Origin: Myxococcales bacterium
GTDB lineage: Bacteria; Myxococcota; Polyangia; Fen-1088
Assembly (NCBI GenBank): GCA_003153875.1
Contig: PMBY01000085.1
Coordinates: 1 to 8,515, forward strand
Direction: 5' to 3'
Length of the DNA stretch: 8,515 bases
The translations under genes were made by a program, and so were the position numbers. This document shows, in pieces, positions 1-8,097 of the stretch (position 1 is the stretch's first letter; every line of letters begins with the position of its first letter). The notes under the pieces are model-generated. The model saw only the letters and a list, made by a program, of their open reading frames with translations. It searched no databases and was not told where the DNA came from.

Positions 1-482
1 TTGCCCATGCCGCCGGTTCCACCAGCAGCAGCCATGTTGGCAGAAGCAGCGCCCAGCTCCTTGAAGGCCGCGACAACGCCGAGCACGGTGCCGAACAAAC
101 CCACGAAGGGGGCGTTGTTGCCCAGAGTCCCGAGAAACAAGAGGCCACTCTCGAAGACCTTGCGGCGTTGGCGAACGCCCTTCTGCACGATTTCTTGCAA
201 GGAATCGGGCCCGTCGGCGTAGTAGTCCAAGGCGTCGCGAAGAATCTCCGCCTCAACCGCATGCAGTTCTTCCAGGTCCCGCTTGGCGCCGGACAGATCC
301 CCGGCGCGCAGCCGCTTGGCCAGCGCATTGCCGGTCGCGATCAGGTCCAGTCGCCGCTTGCGGAAGTACCACCAGCGCTCGAGCACCACGCCGACCGAAT
401 AGACGGACAGCAGGAGCAAGATGTAGAGAACCGCCGCAGCCCCAGTTTGGGCAACGAACACCAGTTTGTGCATCAGCAGCAT
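1..482 (-). CDS. MotA/TolQ/ExbB-type proton channel subunit (3' end outside window)
   Basis: The visible 160 residues match the N-terminal part of the ExbB/TolQ/MotA family, the inner-membrane proton-channel subunits that energise TonB- or Tol-type systems. A first membrane segment covers about residues 8-34. It is followed by a basic, helical cytoplasmic stretch (RKRRLDLIATGNALAKRL) and the family's hallmark second helix at 113-140 (LGNNAPFVGLFGTVLGVV), where AP..GL.GTV.G is the diagnostic motif. A Gly/Ala-rich loop then begins at 145 and the gene leaves the window before the third helix. The ATG at 482 is preceded by GGAAAGG with a 6-base spacer. An ATG at 473 is possible but worse placed. 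It starts 16 bases after the YfaP-like lipoprotein gene and is the last visible gene of the operon. Which subtype it is (ExbB, TolQ or an orphan) cannot be told; an ExbD/TolR partner would be expected beyond the left edge. Confidence 0.9.
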   Translation of the reverse strand, partial: MLLMHKLVFVAQTGAAAVLYILLLLSVYSVGVVLERWWYFRKRRLDLIATGNALAKRLRAGDLSGAKRDLEELHAVEAEILRDALDYYADGPDSLQEIVQKGVRQRRKVFESGLLFLGTLGNNAPFVGLFGTVLGVVAAFKELGAASANMAAAGGTGGMG

Positions 483-498
483 GGGTCACCTTTCCTTT

Positions 499-1407
499 TT
501 AGTAATCAAAAACGAGGGCCTGTAGTCCCGCTCCCTGGCCGTGAGGAAAACGCGTATCGATGTCGGTCGACTGTCCGCAAGCCTCAAAGACTTGGTTGTT
601 AGCAAGCGCGCGAACACACCAGCGCGCCGTGGTCTCAGCACACAGCGAGAAGGTGTCAACGCGCACGACGTAACGTCCGCTCGGTGGCGTGGAAGGGAGG
701 ATCACGTTCTCGGCCCGGCGACCGTCGATCACGCACATGCTGTTGGAGTCGAAGTCGAGATAGCCGGACTGGAGTCCGGCGTCGACGGTCGCGCCGACTG
801 TCCCGAGCGGCAGCCCTGATGGTTTGCGCGACCAGATCTCGTTGACGCCCGCGTCGCCGTCGCTGGGCAAGTCCACATGCAGGTCGAGGTCGGCTTCGGT
901 GTCCCAGGCTAGGCTGATGACCAAGGCGCCCTGGATCTGAGGCGTGTCCATGGTCATGGGCAGCGCCAGCGCCGGCCCTATCTTGCCGTCGCGCGTGGTG
1001 GCCCGAAAGACCACGGACAGGACGCCGCCATCTCCAGCGGGCGTCAGAGGAGAAAACGAGGCCGAAAAGGAGAAGGTGTATCTGCCAACAGTGTTCACGT
1101 CGGGATCCTGCACCGGCACGACCCAGTGCCCAACGTCGCCCTGCAACCCGACCAGCACGGCTGTGGAGTTGGGGCCTGCGCTGCCCGACATCTTCTTGTT
1201 TGCGACCCCTGGGAAAAGCTCGAGGGTGGCGGCCGATGGAGCTGAAACTGTTGGAGCGGGATCGTGAGCGGTGATGTCAATGGGCCCGGGAATGTATTGC
1301 GCGCCCTGGACTGTGAAATACGCCTGCTGTCCGGAACTCGGGTCAGCGCCCGAGCAGGCGCCGCACAGCAATCCACCAGCGACCAAGCCAAGCGCGAGGG
1401 GGCGCAT
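499..1407 (-). CDS. Putative lipoprotein with YfaP/DUF2135-like beta domain
   Basis: This 302-residue exported protein starts with a short hydrophobic signal and Cys18 in the context L-C-G-A-C. That is a near-consensus lipobox with an unusual Cys at -3, so lipidation is likely but not certain. Residues 160-260 carry the pattern I associate with YfaP/DUF2135-type domains: a W-D-T-E-ADLDLHV strand (168-178), a GYLDFDSN turn (215-222), AENVIL (232-237) and GRYVVRVD (244-251). The Asp-rich turns could bind calcium. About 140 residues before it form a less recognisable beta-rich region. Four Cys after residue 220 may form disulphides. The start ATG shares one base with the porin stop (TGATG) and has GGAGG 10 bases upstream inside the porin gene, which suggests translational coupling. 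Its role is not known. The context suggests an accessory to the porin or to the ExbB-type motor. Confidence 0.82.
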   Translation of the reverse strand: MRPLALGLVAGGLLCGACSGADPSSGQQAYFTVQGAQYIPGPIDITAHDPAPTVSAPSAATLELFPGVANKKMSGSAGPNSTAVLVGLQGDVGHWVVPVQDPDVNTVGRYTFSFSASFSPLTPAGDGGVLSVVFRATTRDGKIGPALALPMTMDTPQIQGALVISLAWDTEADLDLHVDLPSDGDAGVNEIWSRKPSGLPLGTVGATVDAGLQSGYLDFDSNSMCVIDGRRAENVILPSTPPSGRYVVRVDTFSLCAETTARWCVRALANNQVFEACGQSTDIDTRFPHGQGAGLQALVFDY

Positions 1408-2975
1408 CAGAAAGCGACCTCCGAACGGAGGGTGAACACGTTGTTCTTCAAGTCAGTGGGTATTCCGCTGATATTCCGGCCCTGGTGGTCGGCGATCCAG
1501 TCGTACTCGACAATGAGTCGGCCTGACAGTGCGCCGACCTTGCCGACCGCCGCGATCGCAAACGACACCGTCGAGATATCCTGACTGGAGGGAACGGCCA
1601 CCGCAGCCTGGCGGTCGGCGCTGTCCAGGTCGGGGTTGTAGTAGTCGTAGCGCAGGCCCGCCTTGAAGTGCGTGCCCAGACTCTGAACAACCGCCACATA
1701 GTAGCCCCACTCGCGCAGATCCCGACCGAGCGGGCCGTAGGGATCGGCAATCAGAAAGCCCCGATCCAGATTCTTGCCGCGGGCAAACTCGCCGTAAATC
1801 GTCGTGCCGGCGTTCTTGAAGTACTCCACTGAAACCAGCGCGTCCGCGCCAACCGCATAGCGGCTGAAGTTCTGCGATGGCTGGCCCGATGTCCCTGGGG
1901 ACACGATAAGCTCAAGGGGGTCGTACCGGCCGTTCTCGTTGAGGTCCTGCCAGATCAGGGTCGGCTTGGTGGGCGGCACTCCTTTGTGAAAGCCTTTGCC
2001 CGCCAGGGTCGAGAATCCGGCCTGAACCGCCACCATTTCCGCAACTTGAGACACAATGCCCAGACGCCCGGTGATGTCCTTGGCCTGGTTGGGATCGCGC
2101 AGGGAGAAGGTGCTCTCGCCCAACGGCTCGCCGTTTTGCACGGCCAGGGCATAGCGAACGAAGCGCCAGCCCCCGGCCAGTCGCATACCCAGGTCGTATT
2201 CTCCCGGGAACAGCGCCCTGACAAAGGTGCTGCGCTCGGCAAAAAGCCTGTCGCGGTCGCTCTGCAGCACCTCGAAGCCGAATGGAATCTTGAAGAGTCC
2301 TGCGGTCAGAGCTGCCAGCGGGACGCCCTCGCTGGGCCATTTAAGTGTGGCCTCCACGTTGAGGGGGCGCACCTGTGCTCCGTTGACTGTGTTGGCGTCG
2401 AGTTCGAAGGCGCCAGCGAAGTAACCTTGGTCCACGGCGGCTCGCAGTCGCGCGCGACGGATGAGAAATCGGTTGTCGTTGAGCGGAACACCAGTGGAGG
2501 CATTGAGCTGGTCCTGCGAGGTCTGCTTGACGTTGAGATCGGCCTGCACGAAACCGGAGATACTGAGCCCCTCAACTCCAGCCACGCGTGGATTGGCTTT
2601 CAGGACAGCCTCGACTTCGGCTCGCGCTTTCGTCTGAACCTTTGCCTCCCCCGCCTCTCGCGCTGTCTTCTCCTCGGCCAGTTTGCGCTGCAATTCCTCA
2701 CGCAGGCTGGCCAACTCCGCGCGTTGCTGCGCCAATTGGGCAGAAAGTTCGGCCATCTCTTTGCGCGCGTCGTCTCCCGACACGGGAGCATTGTCGGCTG
2801 GAGCAGAATCCGGCACCTGGGCAGAGGGGAGGGTCTGCCCAAGTGCCGTGTCGGGGATCGCAAACGGTGCAGTCGCGCAAAGCAGGCCCCAGATCAAGGC
2901 TTGCCGTCTCGGCCGTCCGGCCCCGGATCGGACGTGGATGGCGGTGGCCGCTCTGCGGAAGATAGGGGACTGCAC
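1407..2975 (-). CDS. Phosphate-selective porin O/P (OprO/OprP) family outer-membrane protein
   Basis: A 522-residue outer-membrane beta-barrel precursor. The start is GTG with a weak GAGAG 8 bases upstream, 16 bases after the preceding stop; no other in-frame start lies upstream. The Arg-rich N-region (RRAATAIHVRSGAGRPRR) is long for a signal peptide. A hydrophobic core at 26-46 ends at ALGQ. Residues 68-125 form a charged, heptad-like coiled coil, as in many OprO/P proteins, probably periplasmic. The barrel begins near 136 (LSISGFVQADLN) and carries family landmarks: NRFLIRRARLRAAVDQGYFA (168-187), LFKIPFGFEV and a following ER.T.V segment, and a C-terminal aromatic residue (VAF), the usual Bam signal. 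Residues 344-355 (DLNENGRYDPLE) match a 12-residue EF-hand-type calcium loop in a probable external loop. OprP members conduct phosphate or polyphosphate; phosphate specificity here rests on the neighbouring PstS-like gene. Confidence 0.9.
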   Translation of the reverse strand: MQSPIFRRAATAIHVRSGAGRPRRQALIWGLLCATAPFAIPDTALGQTLPSAQVPDSAPADNAPVSGDDARKEMAELSAQLAQQRAELASLREELQRKLAEEKTAREAGEAKVQTKARAEVEAVLKANPRVAGVEGLSISGFVQADLNVKQTSQDQLNASTGVPLNDNRFLIRRARLRAAVDQGYFAGAFELDANTVNGAQVRPLNVEATLKWPSEGVPLAALTAGLFKIPFGFEVLQSDRDRLFAERSTFVRALFPGEYDLGMRLAGGWRFVRYALAVQNGEPLGESTFSLRDPNQAKDITGRLGIVSQVAEMVAVQAGFSTLAGKGFHKGVPPTKPTLIWQDLNENGRYDPLELIVSPGTSGQPSQNFSRYAVGADALVSVEYFKNAGTTIYGEFARGKNLDRGFLIADPYGPLGRDLREWGYYVAVVQSLGTHFKAGLRYDYYNPDLDSADRQAAVAVPSSQDISTVSFAIAAVGKVGALSGRLIVEYDWIADHQGRNISGIPTDLKNNVFTLRSEVAF

Positions 2976-2991
2976 CGTTGTTTCTCTCGTG

Positions 2992-3504
2992 CTACTGAGC
3001 TGAGCAGGTTGGGTACAGGACAGGCGGATTGGGGCCCGGATCCAGAGCGGACACGGTGGGATCCGCAGTCGCGCCGATAATGGCCAGATGGCATTGAGTT
3101 GCAGTTAGGCCCGTGCAGATATCGGGCGGCGTCACAGAGCCGACTTCTCCGTCGGAGCCACCATCGCCTGCGTCGGCATCAGCGGCAACATCGGCTGGAA
3201 CGTCAGGACCGGGAATCGGGGCGTCCACCCCGGCATCGGGCACCGTGCCAGTTGCCCCGCCCATTGCGGTGCTGCCACCAACCGCGGTGACTCCGCCACT
3301 GCCCGTGACGCCACCAGTGTCAGTCGCTCCACCACTGCCCATAGCGCCACCCGCGCCCGTGGCTCCGCCGCTGCTCACAGTACCGCCAGCGCCGCCAGAG
3401 CCGAGATGCCCAACGTCTGGATTGCTTTGGCTGCTGCTGCCGCAAGCAGCCCAGCCCATCAGAACCAGTGCGAGTCCAACTGTCGAAATCTTAAAGAGAT
3501 TCAT
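2992..3504 (-). CDS. Gly-rich lipoprotein of unknown function
   Basis: I do not recognise a family. The 170-residue product has a signal peptide (MNLFKISTVGLALVLMGWAAC) with a lipobox-like W-A-A-C at Cys21. A Gly-rich spacer follows at about 35-86, built from loose GG-x-T/M-G-x-GG units, then an Asp/Ala/Pro-rich acidic linker at 90-123, and a compact C-terminal segment (124-170) with Cys130, Cys138 and Cys167 and the stretch QCHLAIIGAT. The layout suggests a lipid-anchored, extended tether presenting a small disulphide-bonded head. The ATG at 3504 was chosen because GGAGG lies 9 bases upstream, in the 20-base gap after the PstS-like gene. A longer reading from 3573 would overlap that gene and lose the N-terminal signal. 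It is sandwiched between the binding protein and the porin, so a role linking the two is plausible but unproven. Confidence 0.85.
   Translation of the reverse strand: MNLFKISTVGLALVLMGWAACGSSSQSNPDVGHLGSGGAGGTVSSGGATGAGGAMGSGGATDTGGVTGSGGVTAVGGSTAMGGATGTVPDAGVDAPIPGPDVPADVAADADAGDGGSDGEVGSVTPPDICTGLTATQCHLAIIGATADPTVSALDPGPNPPVLYPTCSAQ
3247..3402 (-). repeat. Low-complexity Gly-rich coding repeat
   Basis: Imperfect short units of the form GGATGxGG / GGVTGSGG encode residues about 35-86 of the Gly-rich lipoprotein. The complementary strand reads as a Pro-rich open frame, which is only the shadow of this composition. Such spacers are frequent in myxobacterial lipoproteins and are prone to length changes between strains. 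Confidence 0.7.
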
Positions 3505-3524
3505 TGTGCATTTCCTCCGATGAG

Positions 3525-4760
3525 TTACTCGCAATAGCCAGTCTGGCAGCGGGTGCCAGGCAACTTGCCGCAATCAGCGTCGCTGGTGCAGTGTGTGGTG
3601 CAGGTGCCAGCCGCCGACGTGACCAACTTGGCAGCCTCGAAGGCGCAGGTGCAGGAAACCGGCGGGTGGTACGGCGAGAACTGGCCGCCATCCTTGTCAA
3701 TCTTGACCTTCATGGCGCACTGAGGGACATCGCCGCCGACCGCGACCGTATTGACGTAGCCGGAGGGGTTGGCGGGGTCGATGGGCACGGCGCCAGTCAG
3801 CCAGTCCAGCACCAACTTCGCGTTGGCCACTGGCTGACCTGCGGTGAGCGGGCTGAAGAAGTGAAGGGGGCCCTGGATCATGTAGTGGCCGTCACGCACG
3901 TTCTTCAGATCGGTGGCAGTGGCAGTCGAGTCGGCGTAGTAGGCTTTGGTTTGCCCGATACCGCGGAAAGCCACTGAGCTGATCTGGGCCCTTCTGCTCG
4001 CATAGAAATCGGCGGCAACGAATCCGATTGCTTTTTGCCGATCGGGAACGGCAATCAAGGATGTCAACAAGGCGCCACTTGACCCGTTGGGAACACCCTT
4101 AAAGGCGCTCTCCGGTACGCCGATGTTCTTGGCGATGAGAATCTGAGTACCTGAGGTCTGGCTGCGCTGCTGGATGGCGGTCTCGTCGGTGAAGTTGCCG
4201 ACCCCGCTCTTCTGGCCACAGCCCCAGATGGCAGCCGCCTGCTGCGACGACATCGACGTCGTGGTATAGTTGTCCTTGGGCACGATGATGAGCATCGACT
4301 GCACCGGGCCGGCCCATTCCCCGATGGTGGCCGGCTTGGACAGGCCCTGGCAGGAATCGAAGGCGACATCGGAAATTCCGACGCTGGCCATGGTGTTGCC
4401 TGAGAGATTGCAAGAATTGATGACGGTCTTGCTGCTGTCGGTGGGATCGGCCGTGTAGTAGTGGGCCGTGCCAGTCAGCGGCTGCGGGACAGGATTGTCG
4501 GCCGGGGGCGAAACCGAGGACACACCGAGGCACGAGGAAATCGGGTCATATATAATTGAGATGCCCTGCTTGGCCTTTATCTGCACAGCGAGCTGGCTGA
4601 GAATGGGTTCGAACGCGCTGCTGCCCGCCATAAATATGGGGTTGGGAAGCACCGAGGTGTCGTTGCAAGCCACGGTGGTGGCCTGGGCGAGGGCCGTTGA
4701 TGCGCTGAGCACCATCCCCGCCGCGCCCGTCAAAGCTACGATCTGTTTTCTATAGGTCAT
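3525..4760 (-). CDS. PstS-like phosphate-binding periplasmic protein with Cys-rich C-terminal tail
   Basis: This 411-residue secreted protein resembles the PstS/PBP-like-2 family that binds phosphate in the periplasm. A Sec signal (residues 1-25, ALA|Q) precedes the mature part. Family landmarks are AGSSAFEP (45-52), which matches the N-terminal ligand loop, RSQTSGTQ (199-206), equivalent to the RxxxSGT anion-binding loop, and VRDGHYMIQGPLHFF (288-302), matching the DGxYPxxxPLY segment. Six Cys within the main domain and about seven more after residue 369 set it apart from E. coli PstS. The tail ends in C-T-S-D-A-D-C...C-x-x-G-Y-C, a pattern common in secreted myxobacterial proteins. The ATG at 4760 follows GGAGGCAGGA, giving good ribosome binding. 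It is the first gene of the operon, behind a Pho-box-like array. No PstCAB genes are visible. Oxyanion specificity is inferred from sequence only; sulfate or another anion remains possible. Confidence 0.88.
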   Translation of the reverse strand: MTYRKQIVALTGAAGMVLSASTALAQATTVACNDTSVLPNPIFMAGSSAFEPILSQLAVQIKAKQGISIIYDPISSCLGVSSVSPPADNPVPQPLTGTAHYYTADPTDSSKTVINSCNLSGNTMASVGISDVAFDSCQGLSKPATIGEWAGPVQSMLIIVPKDNYTTTSMSSQQAAAIWGCGQKSGVGNFTDETAIQQRSQTSGTQILIAKNIGVPESAFKGVPNGSSGALLTSLIAVPDRQKAIGFVAADFYASRRAQISSVAFRGIGQTKAYYADSTATATDLKNVRDGHYMIQGPLHFFSPLTAGQPVANAKLVLDWLTGAVPIDPANPSGYVNTVAVGGDVPQCAMKVKIDKDGGQFSPYHPPVSCTCAFEAAKLVTSAAGTCTTHCTSDADCGKLPGTRCQTGYCE

Positions 4761-4814: not shown

Positions 4815-4832
4815 GCGAGATGCCCGAAGAGC

Positions 4833-4877
4833 CGTTGCGACGGATTTGCTGCGGATTTGTTACAGGATTGCAACGGA
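4833..4877 (-). promoter_or_regulatory. Pho-box-like direct repeats (candidate PhoB/PhoP-type site)
   Basis: On the plus strand four consecutive blocks start at 4833, 4844, 4855 and 4867: CGTTGCGACGG, ATTTGCTGCGG, ATTTGTTACAGG and ATTGCAACGGA. Each block contains a TTGC/TTGT core and a terminal GG or GGA. Read on the minus strand they give CTGTAAC-AAAT-CCGCAGC-AAAT-CCGTCGC, that is 7-base units separated by a 4-base A/T-rich spacer. This is the 11-base architecture of PhoB boxes, whose E. coli half-site is CTGTCAT. The array ends about 73 bases before the PstS-like start codon. A candidate -10 element (TATGGT, minus strand, 4814-4809) lies 18 bases downstream. Confidence 0.6.
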
Positions 4878-4999: not shown

Positions 5000-5125
5000 G
5001 CGGGGATTCAGGCCTGCCACGCTGAATATCACTCGACACAGGTCGAGGATGCCTTGCGATTGCTCCTGCTTGGGGGCGACCTCTATCGACGGGCATGGCC
5101 TCACAAGGCCCTCCTCCCGCCATGA
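5000..5125 (+). pseudogene. Truncated copy of the small NTase-partner gene (3' part only)
   Basis: The sequence aligns to 5695-5820 with a constant 695-base offset and few mismatches, and encodes the last 41 residues of the partner protein (AGIQACHAEYHSTQVEDALR through KALLPP). The homology stops sharply at about 5000. Upstream there is no matching N-terminal half, no matching ribosome binding site and no matching start. Substitutions relative to the intact copy include R-to-C, D-to-H and R-to-H changes, consistent with relaxed selection. It still ends in the ATGA overlap with the nucleotidyltransferase remnant. Confidence 0.8.
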
Positions 5126-5306
5126 GTACCCCAGCCGGAGCTGCCGGTGACATTCTGGCCAGGATGGCGCAGAAGCTTGCCGCCGCCGGCATTCCCTACA
5201 TGGTGGTGGGTTCCTTCGCGATCCACGGCGTGCCCCGAATCACCCAGGATCTTGACATTGTCATCGATCAAAACGAGTTGGCTCTGCGCACGCGCGTGCA
5301 AAGCCT
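5000..5306 (+). repeat. Direct repeat copy 1 (matches 5695-6007)
   Basis: By eye, about 16 mismatches and one 6-base gap over about 307 bases, roughly 95% identity. The repeat spans the end of the small gene and the start of the nucleotidyltransferase gene. The two copies are in the same orientation and separated by 388 unrelated bases. No insertion sequence ends or target-site duplications were seen at the junctions. Confidence 0.85.
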
Positions 5307-5568: not shown

Positions 5569-5820
5569 GTGAACCACGCCGACACACACCCCGAAGCCGC
5601 AGCAGTGCAGCTGACGATCTATCGGAGAATGACGCCCGCCCAGCGGGTCTTTCTCGCCGCCCAGATGTCGGACGACGCAAGGGCAATCACTCGTGCGGGG
5701 ATCCAGGCCCGCCACGCTGAATATGACTCCACACAGGTCGAGGATGCCTTGCGATTGCTCCTGCTTGGGGGCGACCTCTATCGACGGGCGTGGCCTCGCA
5801 AGGCCCTCCTCCCGCCATGA
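5569..5820 (+). CDS. Small partner protein of a nucleotidyltransferase gene pair
   Basis: An 83-residue, mostly helical, soluble protein. The core (MTPAQRVFLAAQMSDDARA, then GIQARHAEYDSTQVEDALR, then LLGGDLYRRAWP) matches the type of short protein often encoded directly upstream of minimal nucleotidyltransferases in bacteria. I know the arrangement but no established function. I chose GTG at 5569 because GGAGG sits 6 bases upstream; an in-frame ATG at 5551 lacks such a site. The stop overlaps the nucleotidyltransferase start as ATGA, so the two are almost certainly co-translated. By analogy with toxin-antitoxin pairs it would be the candidate antitoxin or a specificity subunit, but nothing in the sequence shows DNA binding. 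Confidence 0.8.
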   Translation: MNHADTHPEAAAVQLTIYRRMTPAQRVFLAAQMSDDARAITRAGIQARHAEYDSTQVEDALRLLLLGGDLYRRAWPRKALLPP

Positions 5821-6007
5821 GTACCCCAGCCGGAGCTGCCGGTGACATCTTGGCCAGGATGGCGCAGAAGCTTGCCGCCGCCGGCATTCCCTACATGGTG
5901 GTGGGTTCCTTCGCGAGTTCCTTGCACGGCGTGCCCCGAACCACCCAGGATCTTGATATTGTCATCGATCCAAACGACTTCGGTCTGCGCACGCTCGTGC
6001 AAAGCCT
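5695..6007 (+). repeat. Direct repeat copy 2 (within the intact gene pair)
   Basis: This is the intact counterpart of the copy at 5000-5306. It lies entirely inside the two functional genes, so the upstream copy is the derived, broken one. Confidence 0.85.
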
Positions 6008-6401
6008 GCCCGAGCTTGAGTACTACGTCGACCTGAACACAGCCCTCGACGCACTCAGAAGACGCACACTTTTCAACGTGATCGACATGAAGACCGGATG
6101 GAAGGTCGACCTCGTCATCAGGAAAGCGCGGTCCTTCTCGGTGGAAGAGCTGAAGCGCCGCACAGCGGTGGCACTGCTCGGGGCAGATACCTTCGTCTCG
6201 ACCCCGGAAGATACCATCATCGCGAAGCTCGAATGGGCCAAGGTCGGATGCTCCGAAATGCAGCTGCGAGACGCCGCCGGGATCATCGAAGTGCGCGGCT
6301 CCGGCCTGGACACCGAGTATATCGAGCATTGGACGGCTGCCCTCAATCTGCAGGAACAGTGGCTGAAGGCACAGGAGCTGGCGCGTCCGAAACGGGCGTA
6401 G
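5817..6401 (+). CDS. Minimal nucleotidyltransferase (AbiEii/DUF6036-like)
   Basis: A 194-residue protein with a minimal nucleotidyltransferase fold, which transfers an NMP to a target that cannot be predicted here. Residues 24-51 hold the signature: IPYMVVGSFASSLHG followed by TQDLDIVID, giving G30-S31 and the metal-binding pair D45-x-D47. WKVDLVI supplies the third carboxylate, D98. A C-terminal helical block with STPEDTIIAKLEWAK (128-142) and QLRDAAGII (149-157) is typical of the AbiEii/DUF6036-type group. The ATG at 5817 was chosen because of the ATGA overlap with the partner gene; a GTG at 5790 would overlap by 31 bases. The active-site residues are intact, unlike the upstream remnant. 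A toxin or tRNA-modifying role is possible by analogy with AbiEii and MenT proteins. The family call is sure at fold level and weaker at subfamily level. Confidence 0.87.
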   Translation: MSTPAGAAGDILARMAQKLAAAGIPYMVVGSFASSLHGVPRTTQDLDIVIDPNDFGLRTLVQSLPELEYYVDLNTALDALRRRTLFNVIDMKTGWKVDLVIRKARSFSVEELKRRTAVALLGADTFVSTPEDTIIAKLEWAKVGCSEMQLRDAAGIIEVRGSGLDTEYIEHWTAALNLQEQWLKAQELARPKRA

Positions 6402-6545: not shown

Positions 6546-7097
6546 ATGACCCGCCTGAGAAGTTTTGCTCTTGGCCTGACAGCTTTGCTTGTGCCGTCGC
6601 TGGCAGCCGGCTCGTTGGTCCAGTCACTCGACCTTGCCGAACTGACCGCCCGGGCCGAACGCATCGTGGTTGCCCAGGTCTTGTCGTCCAAGAGCGATTG
6701 GGATTCCGCCCACCGGACCATTCACACGCGCATCGAGATCAAGGTCGAGGAGGCGTGGAAAGGGGCGGTCGCTCCTGGCGAGCGCATCGTCATCGTGCAG
6801 CCGGGGGGCAGCGTGGGCAACATCGAGATGCGCGTGCACGGCATGCCTGGCTTCGTGGTCGGCGAGAAGGCGGTGCTGTTTCTCGCCGGCGAAGCCGCGG
6901 CTCGCGTGGTGGGCATGAGTCAGGGCAAGCGCTCTGTGCGCTGGGACGGCACGGCCAAGCGCTGGGTCGCCGAAGCGGCAGAGCATTCTGCGGTGGTGCG
7001 CCGCGATTCGCAGGGCCAGGTGCAGCCAGCCCTGCCTCAGCCTGCGGCTGGGCTGGATGAGCTTCGCGAGCAGGTGCGCGCGCTGGTCAGGCCGTAG
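6546..7097 (+). CDS. Secreted protein of unknown function upstream of matrixin
   Basis: The product has about 183 residues from the ATG at 6546 and a clear Sec signal (MTRLRSFALGLTALLVPSLAAG). The mature part opens with LDLAELTARAERIVVAQVLS, continues with TRIEIKVEEAWKGAVAPGERIVIV and a GGSVGNIEMRVHGMPGFVVGEKAVLFL block. This looks like a compact beta domain, and I associate the pattern with secreted proteins found beside matrixins in myxobacteria. No catalytic motif or Cys is seen. The start is uncertain: GTG 6525 and ATG 6528 are in frame, a TAG at 6510 blocks anything longer, and none has a well-spaced ribosome binding site. The nearest AAGGAG, at 6498, is too far away. It ends 19 bases before the protease start, so the two are probably co-transcribed. 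A chaperone, inhibitor or export partner of the protease is a guess from context. Confidence 0.8.
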   Translation: MTRLRSFALGLTALLVPSLAAGSLVQSLDLAELTARAERIVVAQVLSSKSDWDSAHRTIHTRIEIKVEEAWKGAVAPGERIVIVQPGGSVGNIEMRVHGMPGFVVGEKAVLFLAGEAAARVVGMSQGKRSVRWDGTAKRWVAEAAEHSAVVRRDSQGQVQPALPQPAAGLDELREQVRALVRP

Positions 7098-7116
7098 AAA
7101 CTCCGAGATCACCTTG

Positions 7117-8097
7117 ATGAAAGACCGAACCATTCTAGTGACAGTCCTGCTTGTGGCGGGCGTGGCGACCCTGCCCATGCCTGCCGCGGCCTACGTCCGC
7201 ACCATGACCGAGTCAGGCGTGGCCACGGCATGGAAGACGCCCTGTGTGACCATGGAGTTTTCCTTGGGTGCCCCTCCGCCCGAATTGGATGCTCAGGGAT
7301 ACTTCAGTGCAGCTCAAGCAGCGGGCGCGGCCTGGAGTCAGGCCTCGCTCGACGGGATCAACCGATGCACCAACGTGATCTTCGCCGTGGTGTCGGTCCC
7401 TGATGTCGCTGGCAAGGTCGGCCTCGACCACCACAATCGATTGATTTTCCGCCAGGGCCAGTGGTGCAGCGATCCCCTACCCAAAGACGGCAGTTGCTAT
7501 GACCCCAGCGCCTTGGCTCTTACTTCGGTCTTCGAGGACATCAACACAGGCGAAATCCTGGACGCTGACTTGGAGGTGAACGCCATCGACTACACCTGGG
7601 GCGATTTCGTGGCCCATCCCGAGCAAACCGACATCCAGGATTTCCAGGGGACGATCACGCACGAGTTCGGACATGTCATCGGCTTGAGCCACACCTGCTT
7701 CAGCCCGGGCGGGACATTCGCTGACGGCACGCTCATTCCGCGGCCAACGGACAACAATGGCAACCTGGTGCCCGATTGCGCTGTCGGCAACCTGCCTGCC
7801 ATCATCACGCAGGCCACAATGTACGTCTCGGTCTCAGCCTCCACGCCCAGCGCAGAGGTCGACCTGCGCAGCTTGTCGCCCGACGACGTGCAAGCCGCGT
7901 GCGACATCTATCCCTTCACGACCAGCTTCGTGTGTCTCGCGCCGTCGAGCACCGGGTCTGCATCATCGAGAGGGGGCTGTTCCTACCCGGAACAGAGAGG
8001 GCGCGATTCTCTCACGAGCGCGCTGGCGATCCTTGCGCTGGCCCTGGCGTTTCGCCGTCGGCCCACGGCCAGCGAGTCCGATTGCACGCGCCGATGA
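7117..8097 (+). CDS. Matrixin-like zinc metallopeptidase with MYXO-CTERM-like anchor
   Basis: A 326-residue exported metzincin protease. After a signal peptide (MKDRTILVTVLLVAG to about AAA, residue 25) the mature N-terminus YVRTMTESG leads into the catalytic domain. The zinc site HEFGHVIGLSH is at residues 182-192, with E183 as the general base. The Met-turn is ATMY, Met235, followed by EVDLRSLSPDDVQAACDIYP, the usual end of matrixin domains. A Ser/Gly linker, Gly-Cys at 287-288, a hydrophobic helix (about 299-313) and RRR form a MYXO-CTERM-like sorting tail. Unusually, about 12 residues including another Cys follow the Arg cluster. ATG 7117 begins a proper signal peptide; a longer reading from 7057 would overlap the upstream gene and has no merit. 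Only GAG (in CCGAGATC) resembles a ribosome binding site. No obvious cysteine-switch pro-segment is seen, so how latency is kept is unclear. Confidence 0.9.
   Translation: MKDRTILVTVLLVAGVATLPMPAAAYVRTMTESGVATAWKTPCVTMEFSLGAPPPELDAQGYFSAAQAAGAAWSQASLDGINRCTNVIFAVVSVPDVAGKVGLDHHNRLIFRQGQWCSDPLPKDGSCYDPSALALTSVFEDINTGEILDADLEVNAIDYTWGDFVAHPEQTDIQDFQGTITHEFGHVIGLSHTCFSPGGTFADGTLIPRPTDNNGNLVPDCAVGNLPAIITQATMYVSVSASTPSAEVDLRSLSPDDVQAACDIYPFTTSFVCLAPSSTGSASSRGGCSYPEQRGRDSLTSALAILALALAFRRRPTASESDCTRR

Follow-up and report, generated by a model that had tools for sequence, protein, structure and literature searches.

What does a bacterium achieve by encoding a phosphate-type binding protein and a porin next to a proton-channel subunit, with no ATP-binding cassette (ABC) permease in the cluster? 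The question is raised by an 8,515-nucleotide stretch of a Myxococcales genome (GCA_003153875.1, contig PMBY01000085.1; hereafter the window), which carries minus-strand genes for a PstS-like binding protein, an OprO/OprP-like porin, two lipoproteins and an ExbB/TolQ-type subunit. We suggest that the window probably carries the first genes of a nine-gene operon by which phosphate is taken up through the outer membrane with energy supplied by TonB, with binding, transport and expression predicted from sequence. We are less sure that the TonB-dependent receptor, found in the related loci, passes the free anion itself.

Gene order and its continuation in relatives

The PstS-like gene (3525..4760, minus strand) starts with ATG and encodes 411 amino acids with a signal-peptide-like start, Asp131, the motif Arg199-x3-Ser203-Gly204-Thr205 and a Cys-rich C-terminal tail. 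It is followed on the same strand by Lp1 (2992..3504), a small low-complexity lipoprotein-like gene of 170 amino acids from its ATG (the mechanically called open reading frame begins upstream, at TTG), the porin gene (1407..2975; 522 amino acids, GTG start), the lipoprotein gene Lp2 (499..1407; 302 amino acids) and the ExbB/TolQ-type gene (1..482), of which 160 amino acids are visible before it is truncated at the window edge. A preliminary description of this DNA had presented a packed five-gene operon. The open reading frame check confirmed the packing, with gaps of 20, 16 and 16 bases and a 1-base overlap, and five proved to be only the visible part of the operon. The reading in which these five genes make up the whole operon was rejected: the ExbB gene leaves the window at its left edge and the operon continues in relatives.

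The ExbB-like protein matched MotA_ExbB (PF01618, E 6e-14, 52.3 bits, cut-off 22.9). The match of the porin to Porin_O_P (PF07396, E 2e-5, 24.4 bits) was marginally above the cut-off of 20.9; 714 porin homologues were detected at E 1e-3, and the porins of two related loci (L010, L071) gave no family match. Lp1 and Lp2 of the window matched no Pfam family, SusD included. Only a few members of the Lp2 family have Pfam matches, which are weak; Cys18 is invariant in an alignment of 36 sequences, and the structure model (predicted local distance difference test score 90) has two beta-sandwich parts.

Relatives were collected by a scan of one genome per species (84,980 species) with two short peptide patterns, which is not exhaustive; a PstS-like alignment gave 13 loci, all with Myxococcales, Polyangiaceae or Sandaracinaceae titles. 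The order PstS-like, lipoprotein, porin, lipoprotein, ExbB is kept in L003-L006 and L009 (a contig end truncates the PstS-like gene of L009). BLAST detected the PstS-like, porin, Lp2 and ExbB proteins at 28-58% identity in L008, L010 and L012, with no match for Lp1, the position of which is kept and the sequence little kept. Judged from these alignments, the gene order is not due to chance, since it is still kept at 28-42% identity in L010 and L012.

The ExbB of L005 is complete (248 amino acids) and 99% identical to the window ExbB across the shared part. In L004-L006, L008, L010 and L012 the genes after ExbB are ExbD, TonB and a TonB-dependent receptor, giving all four parts of a TonB system. 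The receptor, of about 880-910 amino acids, has an N-terminal TonB_C domain and a plug, and the lipoprotein Lp3 comes next (no SusD Pfam match in L005 and L010). A response regulator stands after Lp3 in L004-L006, L008 and L010, and L012 has no regulator directly there; the regulators scanned (L005, L010) fit PhoB best, below the PhoB cut-off. By this gene order the full unit is predicted to be nine genes, of which the window holds the first five.

The gene content supports the earlier proposal that oxyanions are acquired here by a system powered by the proton motive force and separate from Pst, as ExbD and TonB come after ExbB in relatives. In relatives the block is conserved, with ExbB linked to the porin, and pstCAB directly after ExbB, which would have made this an ordinary Pst operon, was not seen in relatives. 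Since a TonB-dependent receptor follows TonB, the lipoprotein bridge between porin, binding protein and motor that had also been proposed is not needed; the analysis gave evidence neither for nor against the part assigned to the lipoproteins. That the window shows a portion of an ordinary Pst operon or of a Tol-Pal-type envelope cluster was rejected as highly improbable: TolQ gives the best score for the ExbB-like protein (61 bits for the window, 115 bits for L005), but neither value comes near the TolQ cut-off of 221, and in relatives ExbD, a TonB_C-domain protein and a TonB-dependent receptor come next, with no pstCAB in the module.

A profile search of 377 Myxococcota genomes detected the PstS-like family in 54 of them, with 78 matches, of which 8 were left out as fragments or weak; the 70 places examined are 68 fetched loci plus L005 and L008. 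The porin adjoins the PstS-like gene in 45 of the 70 (42 genomes; L055 is counted here, its contig stopping before the receptor), and porin, Lp2 and receptor occur together in 39 (37 genomes). ExbB and ExbD are in the fetched piece of 24 of these 39 receptor-bearing modules and missing from that of the other 15; at L110 they are upstream only, separate from the module. The ExbB/ExbD pair is optional in the module. The remaining 25 places comprise lone PstS-like genes, genes close to a contig end, and cases with the porin unrecognised; at L069 the receptor and Lp3 are present and the porin was not recognised.

Eight molybdate-type modules (L071, L073, L088, L090, L092, L093, L096, L099), having Gly-Asp-Thr in the first loop, carry receptor and porin with no ExbB/ExbD in the fetched piece, and these may use a TonB motor encoded elsewhere. 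One genome (G001) has three modules, namely L005 of the phosphate type, L096 of the molybdate type and L094 of unassigned type, and in addition a solitary PstS-like gene (L113).

Binding pocket and substrate classes

By its Type II periplasmic-binding-protein fold the PstS-like protein is nearest to PstS, and its Arg and Ser-Gly-Thr (SGT) were aligned with solved PstS chains. We take Asp131, matched by motif, to correspond to Asp56 of E. coli PstS, and Asp131 with Arg199-x3-Ser-Gly-Thr presumably reproduces the layout of the PstS phosphate site. With neighbour groups drawn once the motifs had been seen, Asp131 is present in 8/8 loci with phosphorus-related neighbours versus 0/14 loci with sulfate or molybdate neighbours (Fisher p 3e-6), and SGT in 5/8 versus 0/14. 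For the four phosphorus loci with neighbours above curated cut-offs (L005, L063, L107, L109) the comparison is 4/4 versus 0/14 (p about 3e-4); the other four are softer, namely L055, with Ppx and PhoB under the cut-off, L115 and L116, where PhnC is under it, and L117, with a Ppx-like gene at 36% identity. YeeE-like genes were not treated as sulfate neighbours, and treating them as such gives 8/8 versus 2/17 (p about 4e-5).

L107 and L109 are placed within the sulfate-type clade (Shimodaira-Hasegawa-like approximate likelihood-ratio support 100) but carry both Asp and SGT, with genes for polyphosphate kinase and phosphonate enzymes as neighbours. On these motifs they would be the telling case for a pocket that tracks the neighbours, to which exceptions exist. 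The molybdate label forms a single group in the porin and receptor trees (support 96 and 87). The sulfate label changes three times on the porin tree and twice on the receptor tree, and the data reject a single sulfate clade in the receptor tree (p 8e-11) but not in the porin tree (p 0.09). Thus, the whole module does not track the substrate label in one simple split.

The contig of L005 encodes, beyond the module, polyphosphate kinase 1 and PhoU above cut-offs and, with scores below their cut-offs, PhoB-like regulators, an exopolyphosphatase-like protein and a PafA-like phosphatase. At L063 (genome G305) the module is followed by a PhoB-like regulator and a PnpS/PhoR-like kinase (below cut-off) and then by a Pst operon about 13-17 kb from the PstS-like gene, having PstB, PhoU, PstS and PstC above cut-off and a further permease at the PstA position. 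Among the sulfate neighbours, Sbp was detected above cut-off at 0.5 to 16.5 kb from the PstS-like gene in L075, L076, L081, L083, L103 and L111; CysT, CysW or CysA were checked for some of the sulfate-neighbour loci. ModB above cut-off adjoins L096 (with ModA) and L098. A PBP_like regulator is directly upstream of L069, L071, L073, L088, L090 and L099 and precedes ModABC at L096. The phosphonate neighbours are PhnW and PhnX above cut-off at L109 and PhnDCE-like genes at L115 and L116. Reference proteins for the neighbour search were drawn from the same loci, and names are from curated models where scanned (PstA, PhnD, PhnE, and CysW/CysA of L130 are not); generic ATPase or regulator matches were ignored (for instance at L092, L093, L099 and L109), and upstream flanks were extended for some loci.

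YeeE/YedE-like sulfur-transport gene pairs were noted near L065, L083, L101 and L108 (Pfam-checked for L083), and TauD-family dioxygenase genes near the sulfate-type modules L062, L067, L075, L076 and L083 (Pfam-checked for L075).

By their neighbours and pockets, versions of the module appear to serve sulfate, molybdate and phosphonates. We consider it evenly balanced whether Myxococcota have one modular TonB-energised outer-membrane importer of simple oxyanions, with the binding protein retargeted in evolution to phosphate, sulfate, molybdate or phosphonates and each version paired with a matching ABC importer of the inner membrane.

The phosphonate genes also bear on a different division of labour, in which the receptor takes larger organic or chelated forms (phosphate esters, phosphonates, organosulfates, metal complexes) and the porin takes the free anion, so that this would be an organic-phosphorus scavenging locus like the Pus loci of Flavobacterium. 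TonB receptors usually carry larger ligands, a PafA-like phosphatase is near the L123 module, PhnW/PhnX are near L109, and the phosphate-regulated receptors of Flavobacterium were interpreted by the authors, in the available text, as organic-phosphorus transporters (PMC8115612). Against this, the adjoining ABC importers are of inorganic phosphate, sulfate and molybdate types and the binding protein has the phosphate-binding-protein fold and motif, and we regard scavenging of organic forms as unlikely, at a level that still deserves attention.

Regulation, importers and comparison with known systems

A Pho-box-like block of four 11-base-pair direct-repeat units (4831..4874, minus strand) is positioned ~70-115 bases upstream of the PstS-like start. 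It is conserved in the window, L001, L002, L004, L005 and L006, with the DNA farther upstream diverging. A spacing of 11 base pairs is also that of the E. coli Pho box. A three-unit pattern gave 16 matches in 1.77 Mb of fetched loci, where five shuffles averaged 0.4; none of the 16 is within a called gene, and these merge into 9 distinct sites once overlaps and double registers are combined. Four of the nine precede a PstS-like gene (window, L002, L005, L006), one precedes the regulator of L006, one is 64 bases before pstC (contig C1 of G001), and three (L002, L080, L094) have no clear phosphate link. The upstream repeats are Pho-box-like, and the site is a putative PhoB site.

Regulator genes adjoin the module, and solitary PstS-like genes are often beside protein kinase genes, which would agree with a PstS-like protein and receptor that chiefly sense the anion and signal to PhoB-like regulators, uptake being secondary. 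The two receptors scanned have no STN signalling domain and no sigma/anti-sigma pair, and modules retain the porin and adjoin importers; a chiefly sensory role is therefore quite improbable. The protein-kinase-like gene cluster was noted near mostly solitary PstS-like genes at 14 loci (among them L056, L059, L060, L064-L066, L068, L070, L072, L105, L110, L117 and L119), with the Pkinase domain confirmed near L060, L064 and L070. Such a PstS-like protein may be an anion sensor that works with a kinase.

The genes pstC, pstA and pstB are absent from the module in relatives. pstC above the curated cut-off was detected outside the module in 10 of 11 relative genomes; of the 54 genomes having the module family, 28 have a pstC above the cut-off. 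Separate PstS, Sbp or ModA proteins are encoded as well as the PstS-like protein.

For TonB-energised phosphate acquisition we propose the following steps. Under phosphate limitation a PhoB-type regulator would bind the repeats upstream of the PstS-like gene. Phosphate would enter through the outer membrane by the OprP-like porin and the TonB-dependent receptor (known from relatives only), probably in a complex with the three lipoproteins. ExbB-ExbD-TonB, as established for the family, would couple the proton motive force to the receptor. The PstS-like protein, with its fold and motif, is predicted to bind phosphate in the Asp/Arg/Ser-Gly-Thr pocket outside the inner membrane, and the anion would then be handed to a separate PstSCAB importer encoded elsewhere, which is present in most relatives tested.

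Several observations weigh against this reading. In the window itself, part of ExbB is all of the TonB system that is visible. The PstS-like protein matched TIGR02136 (E 2e-6) with 27.1 bits, not reaching the curated cut-off of 206.6. Kinship inflates the Fisher test: the tree has three independent switches, all concordant, with p 0.25. L065 and L101 have Asp131 despite the YeeE-like sulfur-transport genes nearby (L083 and L108 are without Asp131), and L086 and L114 have Asp131 and SGT within the molybdate-type clade, with no informative neighbour. In 26 of the 54 module-family genomes pstC above cut-off was not found, which sets a limit to Pst as a universal partner.

Phosphate-regulated TonB-receptor loci are already published for Flavobacterium and Caulobacter. 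According to the available text, OprP, PhoR, PhoB, a TonB-dependent transporter and lipoproteins share one locus in Flavobacterium johnsoniae, the transporter and lipoproteins being strongly induced by low phosphate (PMC8115612). The likeness to this phoBR operon and the Pus loci is the joint presence of porin, regulator, TonB-dependent transporter and lipoproteins; the locus table rows list no PstS-like gene and no ExbBD-TonB, the interpretation there is organic-phosphorus uptake, and no sulfate or molybdate versions are given, the word sulfate being absent from the main text (PMC8115612). For the ElpS/Cc0171 system of Caulobacter, the available text describes a lipoprotein, ElpS, made at low phosphate and secreted, with a TonB-dependent receptor encoded adjacent and a role in phosphate uptake suggested by the authors; it differs by a link to type II secretion, by the lack of a recognised ElpS domain beyond the lipobox, and in that this text names no porin or motor genes (PMC2996285). 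The PUMA3/sigma-VreI regulon of Pseudomonas aeruginosa includes exbB2D2 and tonB4, transcribed via PhoB under phosphate limitation; there, as far as the available text goes, VreA has no barrel, the locus is for signalling and secretion, and no porin is named (PMC4971064). In marine bacteria, periplasmic phosphate accumulation is reported to depend on the proton motive force, and an ion-pairing model was proposed for it (PMC7250820); the likeness to the module is in the physiology, the organisms being different, and TonB and ExbB are absent from the main text of that paper. A survey of Myxococcus transporters has, in the text available, no mention of TonB or OprP (PMC3924187).

The PstSCAB importer with the OprP porin shares the binding-protein fold and the porin family with the module, which differs in having a TonB motor and receptor instead of an ABC permease and a Cys-rich tail on the PstS-like protein. 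A literature search made largely without subscription papers, most hits being judged without full text, turned up neither an account of this combination of genes nor one of versions for sulfate or molybdate.

Small nutrient anions are generally thought to diffuse across the outer membrane through porins. If true, the modular importer would be a genetic basis for active, not diffusive, outer-membrane entry of small inorganic anions. A conserved module in which a phosphate-type porin and binding protein occur with a full TonB system gives a known set of genes with which active entry can be tested. Neighbours have switched naturally between phosphate, sulfate, molybdate and phosphonate types, with matching changes in the pocket, and this offers a comparison for how specificity among oxyanions is determined. 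The occurrence across the family of a single module with different oxyanion partners would be a more interesting result than the phosphate operon alone.

Other features of the window

Near-duplicate DNA was detected at 5000-5306 and 5695-6007 (96% across 222 bases and 92% across 83 bases), a partial copy of a nucleotidyltransferase-like gene (5790-6401) and its upstream DNA. The product of 7057-8097 is metalloprotease-like, has a tail of the JDVT/MYXO-CTERM type and scores below the curated cut-offs; its relatives are near the operon in L001, L005 and L006.

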